Shown here piece by piece: positions 40,823-46,719 of a stretch of 51,740 nt of DNA. Positions within the stretch are counted from its first letter, which is position 1. Each line of letters opens with the position of its first letter. Where the stretch lies: positions 57,541 through 109,280 of the forward strand of contig PMYK01000041.1 of NCBI GenBank assembly GCA_003171255.1. The letters run 5' to 3'. Source of the DNA: Chloroflexota bacterium. Its GTDB lineage: Bacteria > Chloroflexota > Limnocylindria > Limnocylindrales > CSP1-4. The notes beneath the pieces are model-generated. The model was not told the DNA's origin and did not search any database. It saw only the letters and a program-made list of their open reading frames with translations. Position numbers and translations under genes: made by a program.

Positions 40823-41611
40823 TTGGCCAAGACGCCCCGAGGCTGGACCGGCGCCCGCACGCCGTCAGCGATCAAGCGGGTCCGCCAGGCAGAGCGCCGG
40901 CGGGCCATCAATCAACCGCGCAGGAGCGCGGCGAAGACGTACGCCACGAACGCCATCAAGGTCGCCAGCGGCGCCAGCGAAGGCGATACCGCGACCGCGT
41001 TGGCCGAGGCGATGAGCGCGCTCGACAAGGCCGCGAAGGTCGGGGCGATCCACCCCAACAACGCCGCCCGCCGCAAATCGCGCCTGGTCCTCAGGCTGAA
41101 TGCCCTGGCCGCGGGAACCGCGGTGCAGACCACCCGCGCGACCAAGACCACGGGCTCCGCCGCAGCCGTCAAGGCCGCACGGACCCGCATCGCCTCCGGC
41201 AAGGCCACCAAAGCAAAGGGCCCGCAAACCGCCGCCGGCAAGGCCAAGGCCGCACTGTCGAGGACGGCACGCGCGGAGACCACTCCGGTCGCCGCGGCTC
41301 CAGCCGCTCCGAAGGCCGCCGGCAAGGCTGAGAAGCCCGCGACCAAGTCTCCGGCGAAGGCCGCCGGCAAGGCTGAGAAGCCCACGCCTAAGGCCGCGGC
41401 CAAGGCTCCGGCTAAGGCCGCCGGCAAGGCTGAGAAGCCCGCGGCGAAGGCCGCCGCCAAGGCTCCGGCTAAGGCCGCCGCTAAGGCTGAGAAGCCCGCG
41501 TCAAAGGCCGCCGCCAAGGCTCCGGCTAAGGCCGCCGCCAAGGCTCCGGCTAAGGCCGCCGCCAAGGCTGAGAAGCCCGCGGCGAAGGCCGAGAAGAAGC
41601 CCAAGGGCTAA
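40823..41611 (+). CDS. rpsT: 30S ribosomal protein S20 with long histone-H1-like tail
   Basis: A 262-residue protein. Residues 1 to about 95 are bS20: SAIKRVRQAERRRAINQPRR, TNAIKVAS and KAAKVGAIHPNNAARRKSRL are the family blocks. S20 normally stops there (about 85-95 residues). Here a linker (97-160) leads to about 100 residues of repeated Lys/Ala/Pro such as KAPAKAA, AEKPA and AGKAEKP, resembling the tails of histone H1 or mycobacterial HupB. The start is TTG with AGAGGTC upstream, chosen because it yields MAKTP. The tail is very basic and should bind RNA or DNA; no function is known. A strong hairpin terminator follows. Confidence 0.92.
   Translation: MAKTPRGWTGARTPSAIKRVRQAERRRAINQPRRSAAKTYATNAIKVASGASEGDTATALAEAMSALDKAAKVGAIHPNNAARRKSRLVLRLNALAAGTAVQTTRATKTTGSAAAVKAARTRIASGKATKAKGPQTAAGKAKAALSRTARAETTPVAAAPAAPKAAGKAEKPATKSPAKAAGKAEKPTPKAAAKAPAKAAGKAEKPAAKAAAKAPAKAAAKAEKPASKAAAKAPAKAAAKAPAKAAAKAEKPAAKAEKKPKG
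41308..41600 (+). repeat. Degenerate tandem repeat coding the Lys/Ala/Pro tail of S20
   Basis: Related units such as AAGGCTGAGAAGCCC and AAGGCTCCGGCTAAGGCCGCC recur about every 24-45 bases throughout the 3' third of rpsT. They are in-frame, imperfect and probably prone to length change. Confidence 0.85.
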
Positions 41612-41952: not shown

Positions 41953-42255
41953 ATGAACTCGATCCATCGCTTGGGTGTGACCATCGCCGGCGTCGCCACG
42001 ATTGCCACAGTGGCCGGGGCCTTCGTCGTGCAGGGCTACGCGGCCGCACAGCAGACCACGTCCCAGGCAACCGCGACGATCGGAACGCCGGCGGCGACGG
42101 CGTCGCTCGGCCCGGAGATCGTGTACGTCAACCCGGTGCAGTCCCCGCAGGTCATCCACGTCACGAAGACACAGCCTCCGGCTCAGCAGCCACCGGCGAT
42201 CCACGTTGTCGTGCCGTCCGTTCACGGCGACGACAATGGTGGCGGCGACAACTGA
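41953..42255 (+). CDS. Small membrane-anchored protein, SGAT-family paralogue
   Basis: A 100-residue protein of unknown function, first gene of the cluster. An N-terminal hydrophobic segment (about 8-28: VTIAGVATIATVAGAFVV) is a signal anchor, so the rest should lie outside the membrane. The outside part is rich in Thr/Ala/Val/Pro and His/Asp at its end (HGDDNGGGDN). It resembles the next protein in spacing: AQQTTSQAT here against AQQAVSGAT there, then EIVYVNPVQ against ITYIQLQ, and VIHVTKT against VIVKTTQ. GGAG lies 6 nt before the ATG. Its stop overlaps the next start by one base (TGATG). Confidence 0.75.
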   Translation: MNSIHRLGVTIAGVATIATVAGAFVVQGYAAAQQTTSQATATIGTPAATASLGPEIVYVNPVQSPQVIHVTKTQPPAQQPPAIHVVVPSVHGDDNGGGDN

Positions 42256-42674
42256 TGGACGATCCGAACTTCGCCCGACTCGAGCCGCCTCCCCTGGTGC
42301 GGCGGGCGCCCTCTCCGCCTGTCACCCACGCCCCAAAGGCCAGGCCTGACCCGAAGCCGATGCGACTCGCGCTTGGTGCGGCAGGACTCGCTGCGCTGTC
42401 GGCCATCGTTACGGGAATAGTGGTGCCGCCCAGGGCAGTGCTGCTCCCGCCGGCGAACGCCCAGCAGGCTGTTTCGGGCGCAACCGGGGCGTCGATCGCG
42501 ATCCAGCGGCCGATCACCTACATCCAGCTACAGGCAGGCCAGACGGCGCCTCCAGGAGCCAAGGTCATCGACCCGGCGGCGCCTAAGCCGGTCACGGTCG
42601 TGACTACAGTTCCCGCGCCTGCGCAGAAGGCCGTCATCGTCAAGACCACGCAATCTGGCAAGGTCGTGCCGTGA
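42255..42674 (+). CDS. Small membrane protein with SGAT flavinylation-like motif
   Basis: A 139-residue protein of unknown function. A Pro/Arg-rich cytoplasmic N-terminus (1-35) precedes one transmembrane segment (about 37-57), with the C-terminal part outside. There, AQQAVSGATGAS (residues 69-80) contains the SGAT core that ApbE uses to attach FMN to Thr in NqrB/NqrC/RnfG-type proteins (Dxx[S/T]GAT); the usual Asp is Gln71 here, so the motif is degenerate. The remainder, to TTQSGKVVP, is Val/Thr/Pro/Ala-rich. It overlaps the ApbE gene by GTGA, strong evidence for a functional pair. No FMN_bind domain is visible. Being an FMN carrier is an inference. Confidence 0.75.
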   Translation: MDDPNFARLEPPPLVRRAPSPPVTHAPKARPDPKPMRLALGAAGLAALSAIVTGIVVPPRAVLLPPANAQQAVSGATGASIAIQRPITYIQLQAGQTAPPGAKVIDPAAPKPVTVVTTVPAPAQKAVIVKTTQSGKVVP

Positions 42675-43711
42675 TCACCAAGCGAGACCTTCGAGGTTCG
42701 CGGCCGCTCGGGCGGGGGCGCGACAACGCCCAGCCGACCGTGTCTCCCCTCTGGGGGCCCATTTACGGCACGACCACGAGCGTCGAGCCGATCGTCCCGT
42801 TCAGCCACGCCGCCTTCTCGATGGGCGGCCGGCTCGTGCTCCACCTCGACGCAGACGACGAGCGTCGCGACGAGGCCGGCGCCGCGACCGCGTTCGTGGC
42901 CGAGCGGATTGGGCGCTGGGCGGCGCGGATTACCAGGCACTCGGAGACGTCCGACCTTTCGGTCCTCAACTCGGATCTGCGCGACGAAGTCCCCCTCCGC
43001 CCGACTCTTGCCGCCGTCCTCAGAGCCGGACGCATGATCACCGAGTCGACGGAAGGCTTGGCGGACATCACCCTCCTCGACGCCCGCCTGGCAGCCGAGG
43101 GGCTGGCCGACGAACCGAACGATCGGTTCTCGCACGCCTTCGATTGGTCACTGGTGTCCCGTCGTCGCGGTTCGGCGGTGGTGCGCCGCCAACCCGGCCT
43201 GCGCTTCGACCTCGACGGCGTGGGCAAGGGCTGGATCGCCGATCGGGCCCTCCGTCTCCTTTCCGAGTGGCCGAGCGCAATAGTCGATGCGGACGGCGAC
43301 CTCGCGATCCGCTGCGCCCCGGGCAAGACCTGGGAAGTCGCGGTGGACGACCCGCGCACACCCGACACGTCCCTGGCCGTGCTGCGCCTGACGGCTACGA
43401 ATGGCGTGCCCGGTCAGTGGGGAGTGGCCACCTCCGGAACCTCGATACACCGCTGGATCGTGAACGGGGGCCTGAGTCACCACCTCATCGACCCTCGCAC
43501 CGGCAGGCCGGCCGCCACCGATGTGGTTCAGGCGACGGTGATTGCCGGTTCCGCGCTCCGCGCCGAAGGGCTCGCCAAAGCTGCGGTGATAGCCGGCAGC
43601 TACGAGGGACTCGCCCTCCTCGAGCGCGCTCGCGTCCGGGGCGCCGTCATCTTGACCGACAAGGGCGAGGCCGTCGCCCTGCCCCAGACACTCGCCCTGC
43701 TGGGCAACTGA
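42671..43711 (+). CDS. apbE: ApbE-family FAD:protein FMN transferase
   Basis: Enzyme family that moves FMN from FAD to a Thr (or Ser) in a target protein, usually outside the membrane. All key blocks are visible in 346 residues: HAAFSMGGRLVLHL (46-59), LRFDLDGVGKGWIADRA (177-193), AIVDADGDLAI (203-213) and ATSGTSIHRW with HHLIDPRTGRPA (253-281), the metal/FAD site. There is no signal peptide or lipobox, unlike most ApbE enzymes, so it may act in the cytoplasm or be exported in an unusual way. GTG start overlaps the preceding stop by 4 nt; the ferric-reductase-like gene follows at 10 nt. Acceptors are probably encoded just upstream. Confidence 0.92.
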   Translation: MITKRDLRGSRPLGRGRDNAQPTVSPLWGPIYGTTTSVEPIVPFSHAAFSMGGRLVLHLDADDERRDEAGAATAFVAERIGRWAARITRHSETSDLSVLNSDLRDEVPLRPTLAAVLRAGRMITESTEGLADITLLDARLAAEGLADEPNDRFSHAFDWSLVSRRRGSAVVRRQPGLRFDLDGVGKGWIADRALRLLSEWPSAIVDADGDLAIRCAPGKTWEVAVDDPRTPDTSLAVLRLTATNGVPGQWGVATSGTSIHRWIVNGGLSHHLIDPRTGRPAATDVVQATVIAGSALRAEGLAKAAVIAGSYEGLALLERARVRGAVILTDKGEAVALPQTLALLGN

Positions 43712-43721
43712 GGAGACCACC

Positions 43722-44597
43722 ATGTTCCCTCTCGAGCCTGACCGGCCGCCTCTGCCTCTTCGACCGCTCGCCGACCCGGCGGCGCGCCAATCCGGGCCAC
43801 GCCCGACCAGGGCCGGCGGCCCGGTCTACCGCGGGCTGCCCAGACTGGTGCGCCTGGCCATGTGGGTCATCGCAGCCCTCGTCATAGGTGGCGTCCTTGG
43901 CGCAACAGCGCCGACCGCGCTTCGACGTCTCGGTGCGGTCGCCGCGCTCCAGCCGGGCCTCCTCGCGTGGTACACCGTGCGCGCCCTCGGCTTCCTCGCC
44001 TACCTCGTCGTGGCCGGCTCGGTCCTGTACGGCCTGCTGCTGTCGACCAAGATCCTCGACGCGATAGCCCACCGGCCCGTGAGCTTCGCACTGCACAAAG
44101 ATCTGGCGGTAGTCGGCTTCGTACTGGCCGCCCTCCACGCCGTCATCCTGTCGGCGGACCAGAGCTTCGCCTTCACGCCGCGCGCGATCCTCGTCCCGTT
44201 CGCTTCGCCATACGCGGCGACGTGGGTCGGAATCGGCCAGCTGACCTTCTACGGCCTCGCGGTCGTGACGGCGAGCTTCTACGTTCGTCGCCAGATCGGC
44301 CAGCGGGCGTGGCGCCTGCTCCACTACCTGACATTCCTGGTGTTCATCGGCGCGATCGGCCACGGCGTGATGTCCGGCTCCGACAGCGGGTCGGTGTGGG
44401 CCTTCTGGCTGTACCTGGTGCCCGGCGCCGCCGCCGTATTCCTGCTCGTCTACCGGATCGTCGTCTCCATCTCCGCTCGGTTCTCGCGATCCGAGTCGGC
44501 GCGGCCGGTCGGCCAGAGCCCGTTGATCACCCGCGCTCCACTCGCATTCCCGGGCAGCCGCGTCAACGCCGACCGCCCGGGACCGACGCTTGACTAG
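43722..44597 (+). CDS. Ferric-reductase-like di-haem membrane protein
   Basis: A 291-residue membrane protein of the ferric reductase/NOX transmembrane (PF01794-like) type with about six to seven hydrophobic segments. Two pairs of His are spaced as haem ligands: His125/His139 (ALHKDLAVVGFVLAALHAVI) and His201/His214 (WRLLHYLTFLVFIGAIGHGV), so two haems b across the membrane are likely. There is no C-terminal FAD/NAD(P)-reductase domain, unlike FRE/NOX proteins; electrons would have to come from or go to separate flavin carriers, which fits the ApbE gene 10 nt upstream. GGAG lies 7 nt before the ATG. MsrQ is a possible functional analogue. Confidence 0.88.
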   Translation: MFPLEPDRPPLPLRPLADPAARQSGPRPTRAGGPVYRGLPRLVRLAMWVIAALVIGGVLGATAPTALRRLGAVAALQPGLLAWYTVRALGFLAYLVVAGSVLYGLLLSTKILDAIAHRPVSFALHKDLAVVGFVLAALHAVILSADQSFAFTPRAILVPFASPYAATWVGIGQLTFYGLAVVTASFYVRRQIGQRAWRLLHYLTFLVFIGAIGHGVMSGSDSGSVWAFWLYLVPGAAAVFLLVYRIVVSISARFSRSESARPVGQSPLITRAPLAFPGSRVNADRPGPTLD

Positions 44598-44627
44598 CAC
44601 AACCCCGCCGCTCCAAGGAGGTCTTCA

Positions 44628-45452
44628 ATGCCTCGTGAAGTCGCGACGAGGGCCCAATTGATGGACGGAACTAGCTCTGCTGCGCCATTAGCCGCCCCGC
44701 TGAGCTATCGTGTGCCCATGGGATCCCGGATTCTCGTCGCCGATGACGAGCCTCATATCCGAGAGGTCGTTCGGGCCTACCTCGAGCGAGAGAGCTACGA
44801 GGTGCTCGAGGCACCCGATGGCGAGGTCGCCCTGACGCTCGCGCGAACGGCCGGGCTGGACCTGCTCGTGCTCGATGTGATGCTGCCTTTGCGCTCCGGT
44901 TTCGACGTCCTGCGCGCACTGCGCAGCGAGGGATCGAATGTCGGAGTGGTCATGCTCACCGCCCGGGACGACGTCATCGACCGGGTGGCGGGCCTGGAAC
45001 TCGGCGCCGATGACTACGTCACCAAGCCGTTCGAGCCACGTGAGGTAGTCGCCCGAGTAGGGGCCGTACTGAGGCGCTTCGGTCGACCAGCCGGCAGCGC
45101 TGCTACCGGCTCCACGGATGAGGCTCCGCCTCCGCGGCCGACCATCCTCTTCTTCGATCTCATTATTGATTTGGATGCTCGAGACGTCTCGCACGCAGGG
45201 GCGAGCGTGCCGCTGACTCGAACCGAACTCGACGTCCTGGCTGCGCTCGCAGAGCAGCCCGGCAGGGTCTGGACGCGCGAGCAGATCGGCCAGCGGGTCT
45301 TCGGCGAGTCGTTCGACACCTTCGACAGGACGATCGACAGCCACGTCAAGAACCTCCGCGCCAAGCTGGGCCTCCGAGGAGACGGCGGATCATACGTGGA
45401 GACAATCCGGGGCGTGGGGTATCGAGCCGCCCGCCCGGTCGACCAGGCCTGA
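44628..45452 (+). CDS. OmpR/PhoB-type response regulator
   Basis: DNA-binding response regulator of 274 residues. The receiver domain has the acidic pair in ILVADDEPHI, the phospho-acceptor Asp in LLVLDVMLP (Asp83), TARD and the Lys in YVTKPFE. The winged helix is at the C-terminus (TRTELDVLAALAEQPGRVW, TIDSHVKNLRAKLG, YVETIRGVGYRA). Two starts are in frame: 44628 with a perfect AAGGAGG Shine-Dalgarno, adding 30 residues, and 44718 (MGSRILVADDE), which matches the usual family start and lies 6 nt after a TATCGT. It is 30 nt after the ferric-reductase gene and 16 nt before the kinase gene. Confidence 0.95.
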   Translation: MPREVATRAQLMDGTSSAAPLAAPLSYRVPMGSRILVADDEPHIREVVRAYLERESYEVLEAPDGEVALTLARTAGLDLLVLDVMLPLRSGFDVLRALRSEGSNVGVVMLTARDDVIDRVAGLELGADDYVTKPFEPREVVARVGAVLRRFGRPAGSAATGSTDEAPPPRPTILFFDLIIDLDARDVSHAGASVPLTRTELDVLAALAEQPGRVWTREQIGQRVFGESFDTFDRTIDSHVKNLRAKLGLRGDGGSYVETIRGVGYRAARPVDQA

Positions 45453-45468
45453 TGCCGGAAGAGGGGAC

Positions 45469-46719
45469 GTGAGCCTGCGCTGGCGAATCGCCATCGGGTT
45501 CGCCCTCGTTGCGCTTGCCACTGCCGCCGTAATCGCCCTCGCTACGCCACCGATCGTGAACCAGGGTTTCTCAGACATCGACACCGACAACGATGGCGGT
45601 CAGCCTATCGCCACTGCCCTCTCACCCGCGTCGAGTGGCGACGGCGAGTCCGGCGACGTAGCCGGGCAGGCGACTTTGGCCGCCACTGCAGCGGCGCCAC
45701 ATCCCGCCGTGACTCCAGCCCCGGCGCCGGCCGCCGGCCCGTTGAACATCGGTCACGCCCAGCAGATCACGATCATCCGGCTACTCCTGGCTGCCGTCGC
45801 CGCGGCCGCCGTCGCGTCCATGTTCGGTCTGCTCGCCGCGGGCAGGCTCGTGCGACCGCTAACCCAGTTGGAGAAGGCTGCTGCCGCCGTCGCCCGCGGG
45901 GACCTCGGTCGGCGGTCGGGTATGGCGGGGCGGAGCGATGAGTTCGGACAGCTGGGCCGCACCTTCGACTCCATGGCCGCCGAGTTACAGGCGGCCGATG
46001 AAACCAGGCGCCACTTTCTCCAGGACGCGGCCCACGAGCTCAAGACACCGCTGGCGGTCATCGACGCCACCTCCAGCGCGATCCTCGACGGCGTCTACAC
46101 GCCCGAGCGCCGCCACATCGAGACCATCCGCGACCAATCGCGCGTCCTGGCTCGGATAGTGGACGACCTCCGGACGATCAGCCTGGCCGAAGGAGGGCAC
46201 CTTCCCCTTGAGCGCCGCCGGCTCGACGTCGGGGCTGTGCTCGAGTCGGTCGCCGCGGGCTTCGAGGCCCGTGCCGCAGGCAACTCGATCACGCTCTCGG
46301 TCGATGCCGCGCAGGGGATCGTTGTCGAGGCGGACCCGGATCGGCTCCGCCAGGTCATCGGCGCTCTCGTCGACAACGCCCTGCGCCACACTCCGGAGGG
46401 CGGCTCGGTTCGCGTGACCGCCAGCGCATCCGGCCCGCACGGGGTCATGGCAGCCGGCCGAGTCGGTCCCCCGAAGCCCGTCGTTCGGCTGGCCGTCGAG
46501 GACACTGGGTCGGGCATTCCGGCCGAGTCCCTGGCGCGCATCTTCGAGCGGTTCTACCAGGCCGATCCGTCGCGAAGCCGCGGTACGGGAACGAGCGGCC
46601 TCGGACTGTCGATCGTGCGAGCGCTCGCCGAGGCCCACGGCTGGCGCGTGGGCGCGGAGAACCGGGCCGAGGGCGGCGCTCGACTCTGGATCGAGTTGCC
46701 GGCTATCCGTCTCGCCTGA
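45469..46719 (+). CDS. Membrane sensor histidine kinase
   Basis: A 416-residue kinase partner of the preceding response regulator. Membrane segment 1 (about 8-28) and 2 (about 101-124) frame an extracytoplasmic Ala/Pro/Gly-rich sensor region of about 70 residues that has no recognisable fold. HAMP follows (RLVRPLTQLEKAAAAVARGD, about 126-175), then the H-box FLQDAAHELKTPLAVI with His189, N-box DRLRQVIGALVDNALRHTPE, and G-boxes VEDTGSGIP and GTSGLGLSIV. GTG start after GAGGGGAC. Its position suggests it may sense redox or flavin/haem status, but that is inference. Confidence 0.95.
   Translation: MSLRWRIAIGFALVALATAAVIALATPPIVNQGFSDIDTDNDGGQPIATALSPASSGDGESGDVAGQATLAATAAAPHPAVTPAPAPAAGPLNIGHAQQITIIRLLLAAVAAAAVASMFGLLAAGRLVRPLTQLEKAAAAVARGDLGRRSGMAGRSDEFGQLGRTFDSMAAELQAADETRRHFLQDAAHELKTPLAVIDATSSAILDGVYTPERRHIETIRDQSRVLARIVDDLRTISLAEGGHLPLERRRLDVGAVLESVAAGFEARAAGNSITLSVDAAQGIVVEADPDRLRQVIGALVDNALRHTPEGGSVRVTASASGPHGVMAAGRVGPPKPVVRLAVEDTGSGIPAESLARIFERFYQADPSRSRGTGTSGLGLSIVRALAEAHGWRVGAENRAEGGARLWIELPAIRLA

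Follow-up and report, generated by a model that had tools for sequence, protein, structure and literature searches.

Extracytosolic electron transfer by way of covalently bound flavin mononucleotide (FMN) is known from the MsrQ-like flavinylation clusters, in which apbE, the gene of a flavin adenine dinucleotide (FAD):protein FMN transferase, stands beside that of a six-helix di-haem protein of family PF01794; as these clusters are described in the accounts drawn on here, a gene with an FMN-binding domain typically belongs to them, and the haem protein often carries a nicotinamide adenine dinucleotide (NAD) domain (PMC8238504, PMC11334425). The 2021 survey by Meheust et al., in the portions used here, links these systems to iron, discarded genes lacking a signal peptide and was left with 'orphan' apbE genomes for which no substrate is known (PMC8238504). 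The locus considered here lies on the plus strand at positions 41953–46719 of a 51,740-nucleotide (nt) stretch of the genome of a Chloroflexota bacterium (contig PMYK01000041.1 of assembly GCA_003171255.1, positions 57,541 to 109,280), the whole of which is called the window; it encodes two small anchored proteins (P1 and P2), an ApbE, a ferric-reductase-like membrane protein (FR), a response regulator (RR) and a histidine kinase (HK). The locus shares with the MsrQ-like clusters the pairing of apbE with a di-haem protein, but neither an FMN-binding-domain gene (by Pfam) nor an NAD domain on the haem protein is present; a small tail-tagged protein would be the carrier, and ApbE lacks a signal peptide. 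The target of ApbE is likely to be P2, through its C-terminal end and not through a folded FMN-binding domain, and the best explanation of the locus, to which we assign a probability of roughly 0.62, is that ApbE would put FMN on a C-terminal serine of P2, to be reduced by the haems of FR for an acceptor outside.

P2 (42255–42674) is a single-span, Pro/Ala/Thr-rich protein without a recognised domain; like P1, it reached no family cut-off in Pfam, gave no match to PF04205 and has no family in NCBIfam. Its tail reads KTTQSGKVVP, in which T131-T132-Q133-S134 (42645–42656; Ser134 codon, 42654–42656) is the predicted flavinylation site. TTQSG followed by three to five residues ends all 16 P2 copies aligned within the genus (that of the window and 15 copies from 14 loci), the rest of the protein being variable in sequence; in more distant families the upstream proteins are dissimilar and their ends follow one pattern (TRSSR, TRSS, TGSS, TGGS, RTRGS, SGGS, TRQSGKP, TKPSGG), three tails reading exactly SGAS. 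The frequency of this tail was surveyed in loci drawn from ApbE-profile searches, which favour the best matches, to the exclusion of the FMN_bind neighbourhoods L069–L090: filtering 240 ApbE hits at 90% identity left 199, and removal of 12 with short upstream sequence left 187 nonredundant loci, in which the open reading frames (ORFs) are simple, uncurated start-to-stop frames and many of the genomes are incomplete. An anchored ORF ends near the apbE start in 168 of the 187, and 150 of these 168 close with [ST]..S plus zero to five residues, the corresponding share being 9.3% among the 1826 other anchored ORFs of these loci and 15.5% when the last 30 residues of the same 168 ORFs are shuffled; under a stricter ORF filter the tail is found in 121 of 134 upstream ORFs and in 10.8% of 836 others. 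Shifted 12 residues inward, the pattern matches 19/168 (shuffle, 10%), and among the other spacings [ST]S is found 76 times, [ST].S 91, [ST]...S 58 and [ST]....S 56; the preferred spacing is that of the known ApbE motif [S/T]GA[S/T]. Thr takes the acceptor place in 13/168 (shuffle, 13%) and Ser is the very last residue in 74 (3%), while [ST]GxS occurs in 40 of the tails (2%) and the exact [ST]GA[ST] in three (0.3%).

The tail accompanies the haem protein, being present in 137 of 155 loci with an adjacent FR and in 13 of 32 without one (Fisher p 3e-8). BLAST sorts the 150 P2 bodies, once the last 12 residues are removed, into 56 clusters, which indicates that the common property is the tail and not the body. 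In the stricter set, 108 of 123 P2-type proteins are N-in as judged from flanking Lys/Arg, and the stretch behind the span, with a median length of 81 residues, is rich in Pro, Ala, Thr and Ser. The initial annotation had proposed that both small proteins could be covalent FMN carriers that connect the membrane haems with electron partners outside or inside; for P2 this idea is well supported by the [S/T]xxS tail, which it had not named.

ApbE (42671–43711, GTG start, no signal peptide seen) scores 140.3 bits against PF02424, the curated cut-off being 25.6 (E 1.1e-40), with only weak, below-cut-off matches in NCBIfam; its structural model has a mean predicted local distance difference test score (pLDDT) of 88.9, and its Foldseek matches below 1e-16 are ApbE, Ftp and FmnB structures, the best at 5.7e-22. 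The catalytic triad of ApbE, as given in a report on flavin tagging, is Asp-Ser-His (PMC12052999). In the alignment to 6nxi, where chain numbers plus 16 fit a review's Ser241, His257 and Asp285, Ser255 and His271 correspond to Vibrio cholerae Ser241 and His257 and are invariant in 15 sequences, whereas E299 and K303 (43565–43579) stand at the places of Asp285 and Thr289, Glu replacing the catalytic Asp in at least 90% of the 15 sequences and Lys303 being invariant in the 15-row alignment. The Thr found four places after the triad Asp is a magnesium ligand in ApbE. By an automatic signature, the residue at this place in the 187 loci is Lys in 148, Thr in 14 and unassigned in 25, and tails occur with both types (126 of the 148 Lys loci, nine of the 14 Thr loci). 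A hydrophobic stretch within 45 residues ahead of the ApbE core was found in one of 199 sequences. Two further observations concern ApbE neighbourhoods: at L068 (8413–8799, minus strand), a Thr-type ApbE is preceded by a protein in which three SGTT units come ahead of the SSGGS end, and one unfolded chain might there bear several flavin sites; in L208, L209 and L214, a different ApbE branch with an EGEALAK signature immediately follows an ORF of some 495 codons, and neither FR nor a tail protein was found there.

FR (43722–44597) is a di-haem protein of the MsrQ/NOX/STEAP type without a flavin domain and without a family in NCBIfam. Its match to PF01794 (E 1.7e-5, 25.3 bits) falls under the gathering cut-off of 28; its model has six helices of at least 20 residues, so that, the Pfam score notwithstanding, a six-helix two-haem protein stands beside apbE as in the MsrQ-like clusters. 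The best Foldseek matches were NOX and STEAP at E 0.02–0.06, none being below 0.001. The two His pairs previously noticed in FR are borne out by H125/H139 and H201/H214, the only His residues invariant in 16 FR sequences. A loop of FR, HGxxSG[ST]D[ST], was also weighed as a flavin site from the alignment alone.

As to the source of electrons, a ferredoxin gene lies between FR and RR in the genus loci L036–L044, joined in L036 and L044 by a gene resembling ferredoxin-NAD(P) reductase (Fer4 and FAD_binding_6/NAD_binding_1 in Pfam); neither gene is found in this interval in the window or in L045. Among all 133 loci with 1800 nt of downstream sequence, ferredoxin occurs in 12 and the reductase in four, rarely near the cluster outside the genus. 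Elsewhere in the window's genome there are a ferredoxin homologue (59% identity, G000:C55) and a weaker reductase match (G000:C31).

P1 (41953–42255) is a small single-span protein with a Gly/Asp-rich acidic C-terminus (GDDNGGGDN), a putative metal- or cation-binding partner. The part of the initial proposal that made P1 a flavin carrier is not supported, and P1 is probably not one; its recurring feature is the acidic/His tail, carried by an upstream anchored ORF in 93 of 173 loci (76 by a stricter rule) versus 11 of 554 opposite-strand anchored ORFs, and 89 of the 93 loci also have a tail protein. One P1-like relative has many weak NCBIfam matches, which look like chance coiled-coil hits, and the P1-like protein of L115 contains a PepSY domain. 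A P1-like protein encoded some 630 nt ahead of the ApbE core in L111 has VVTRQSG immediately in front of the acidic end, which would suit a shared origin of P1 and P2.

From the observed gene order, the conserved motif, the frequent absence of FMN_bind detailed below, the haem ligands and the ApbE fold, the following chain of events can be proposed. ApbE would transfer FMN from FAD to the serine of [S/T]-x-x-S near the C-terminus of P2 (Ser134 of TTQS), presumably in the cytosol and before export; P2, having one N-terminal span and being N-in/C-out by charge, would then hold the FMN outside the membrane on a flexible leash, since its Pro/Ala/Thr/Ser-rich and probably disordered tail contains no recognised domain. 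FR would move electrons across the membrane through two b haems and reduce the tethered FMN, if the flow is indeed outward, and the FMN would hand them to an outside acceptor, most likely ferric iron or another oxidised metal, ions of which may be collected by the acidic tail of P1; metal reduction is the best guess because of this tail and of the iron link of MsrQ-like systems. The cytosolic donor in the genus relatives is probably the ferredoxin encoded after FR, in some with ferredoxin-NAD(P) reductase. That P2 represents a new class of ApbE substrate, namely an anchored and largely unfolded protein with a serine of the C-terminal tip as its FMN site, modified by a Glu/Lys subtype of ApbE, served by a bare di-haem reductase as electron arm, and occurring widely both in Chloroflexota and in a second sample at phylum level, seems to us somewhat better than an even proposition. 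Examples were met in records labelled Isosphaeraceae, Acidobacteria, Solirubrobacterales and Armatimonadota, and less clearly in Myxococcales and Alicyclobacillus; the label 'Acidobacteria' is open to doubt for L157, and a single phylum makes up the second sample, since the draws for Solirubrobacterales and for this genome gave the same genomes.

Several observations weigh against flavinylation of the tail. Most tails deviate from the known motif, with no Asp at −3, usually no Gly-Ala, and Ser instead of Thr; compared with D-x-x-[S/T]-G-A-[S/T], the tail of the window has the [S/T]xxS spacing without Gly-Ala and Asp, and five residues follow its Ser. Other spacings are also above shuffles (34–54% vs 15–16%), because P2 ends are Ser/Thr-rich, and the automatic rule finds no tail in 18 of the 155 FR-adjacent loci; a looser look at loci without a tail call gave the ends TTSASRW and TSSSASSP in Alicyclobacillus (L166, L169) and VTRASR in Myxococcales (L123), all on ORFs that, as called, have at most a weak hydrophobic stretch. 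The active site of ApbE differs from that of the tested enzymes in its Glu and Lys, which replace Asp and Thr, and the enzyme is without a signal peptide though the P2 tail is predicted outside, so that attachment would need to precede export; the pair of FMN_bind and ApbE elsewhere in this genome seems to resemble it on this point. ApbE is missing from four of 20 other genomes of the genus, and no significant link between having a tail cluster and lacking FMN_bind was found in Chloroflexota (Fisher p 0.70) or in the other sample (p 0.057).

It is conceivable, if unlikely, that the tail stays unmodified and acts as a docking or quality-control signal for ApbE or FR, the flavinylated protein being another one. 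A candidate for the latter does exist: the window's genome (2.56 Mb, 55 contigs) encodes one FMN_bind protein with a typical DTVSGATYTSDGY site, on another contig (G000:C35) and after a flavin-domain ferric reductase, and the dissimilarity of most tails to DxxSGAT would suit an unmodified signal. The same genome, however, has another ApbE (G000:C34), which bears the usual signature, A-D-x-x-x-T, and whose counterparts adjoin FMN_bind in several relatives; moreover, the tails prefer the spacing of the flavinylation motif, and three of them match it exactly with SGAS. In the genomes behind loci L171–L295, to which this count is confined, FMN_bind coexists with the tail cluster in 28 of 94, which favours this rival, and was not detected in 66 (46 of 71 Chloroflexota, 20 of 23 in the other sample), which speaks against it; FMN_bind was likewise not found in 148 of the 240 Chloroflexota genomes matching the ApbE profile (400 searched), nor in any of the seven genomes reached via loci labelled as other groups. 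The initial annotation had let its proposal depend on co-occurrence of the genes in relatives and on there being no other FMN_bind protein as the only ApbE target: wherever the genes occur they are conserved together, but such a protein is encoded in the genome. We consider it improbable that the ApbE subfamily has lost its transferase activity and works as a cytosolic FAD flavoprotein feeding FR, or as an FAD hydrolase, with P2 as a structural protein. The substitution of Vibrio cholerae Asp285 and Thr289 by E299 and K303, the want of a signal peptide and an FR without a flavin domain of its own would all agree with it; yet the catalytic Ser and His are invariant, the conserved tail would stay unexplained, and the ferredoxin gene, in some relatives with the reductase gene, after FR could supply the electrons. 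The notion that the flavin sits on the internal VSGATGAS of the window's P2 is very improbable: this is a perfect [ST]GA[ST] match, of which 1.8% of shuffled tails contain one, but it is present in only one of 17 P2s selected by their TTQSG end, which argues that it is not a conserved site, whereas the TTQSG end is kept in 16 of 16 genus copies. Flavinylation of the P2 tail by ApbE is the reading preferred here.

All six ORFs annotated at the locus were found in place; as first reported, two junctions overlap, by 1 and by 4 bases, and two are separated, by 10 and by 16 nt. ApbE has a homologue in 31 of the 61 genomes searched, the window's own included; within the genus, a close homologue occurs in 14 of the other 20 genomes, a distant match only in two, and none in four. 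The order P1-P2-ApbE-FR-RR-HK is kept in 11 of the 14 genus loci (L035–L045), the remaining three (L034, L007, L046) lying on contigs that end too early for the full order to be judged; tandem duplicates occur in two genus members, P1 being present twice in L034 and L035, and P2 also twice in L035. P1-P2-ApbE-FR is a conserved core, found also in other lineages, and RR-HK is kept in the genus.

The 30-nt gap first given before RR is doubtful. CTATCGT, then 6 or 7 nt, then ATG precede the conserved start M-[GT]-[ST]-[RK]-I-L in 12 of 12 genus loci compared, which places the start of RR (44718–45452) at 44718 and makes the FR–RR gap 120 nt; in relatives the gap ranges from 71 to 1306 nt and often contains the ferredoxin gene. 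The TATCGT element of the window (44706–44711), 6 nt before the start, is one that we take to be of the leaderless promoter type, and RR probably has a promoter of its own. The description of the locus as a minimal module with its own two-component system was too strong, as the core seen in other lineages consists of P1-P2-ApbE-FR and a separate promoter-like element precedes RR-HK. RR is an OmpR-type regulator with Response_reg and Trans_reg_C, and HK (45469–46719, GTG start) combines HAMP, HisKA and HATPase_c with a short, variable extracytoplasmic loop, which is the OmpR/EnvZ-type architecture by Pfam. Upstream of the module, an ORF at 40823–41611 has a long repeated Ala/Lys-rich tail (KAEKPAAKAAAKAPAKA...) and presumably resembles ribosomal protein S20 with an extension.

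As far as our searches show, the kind of system is known, being ApbE-based extracytosolic electron transfer, and the form of the substrate and the enzyme subtype are undescribed; no tail-tagged ApbE substrate was met in the literature searched, which left bioRxiv and supplementary files outside its scope, so that absence is unproven. If the proposal is true, many orphan apbE genomes would gain a concrete, testable substrate, flavin carriers could perhaps do without a folded domain, protein labelling would have at its disposal a new ApbE active site and a short motif with Ser as acceptor, and a so far unrecognised, widespread way of moving electrons out of cells would have to be considered. The FMN_bind system and second ApbE of the same genome resemble the locus in the Pfam family of the haem protein, in an N-terminally anchored carrier and in an ApbE without an obvious signal peptide; they differ in that the carrier has a folded FMN_bind domain with an internal SGAT, the reductase its own FAD/NAD domains, and the ApbE an A-D-x-x-x-T signature and no middle part of the profile. 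An artificial flavin tag at the C-terminus does function and, as far as the tagging report describes it, likewise places FMN on a Ser/Thr of a terminal stretch (PMC12052999); P2 would be the natural counterpart of this laboratory tool. Some FMN_red proteins, as described in part of PMC11334425, carry flavinylation sites on an unstructured C-terminal extension, the flavin of which is believed there to go back into a flavin-binding domain that is folded, whereas P2 has no such domain.

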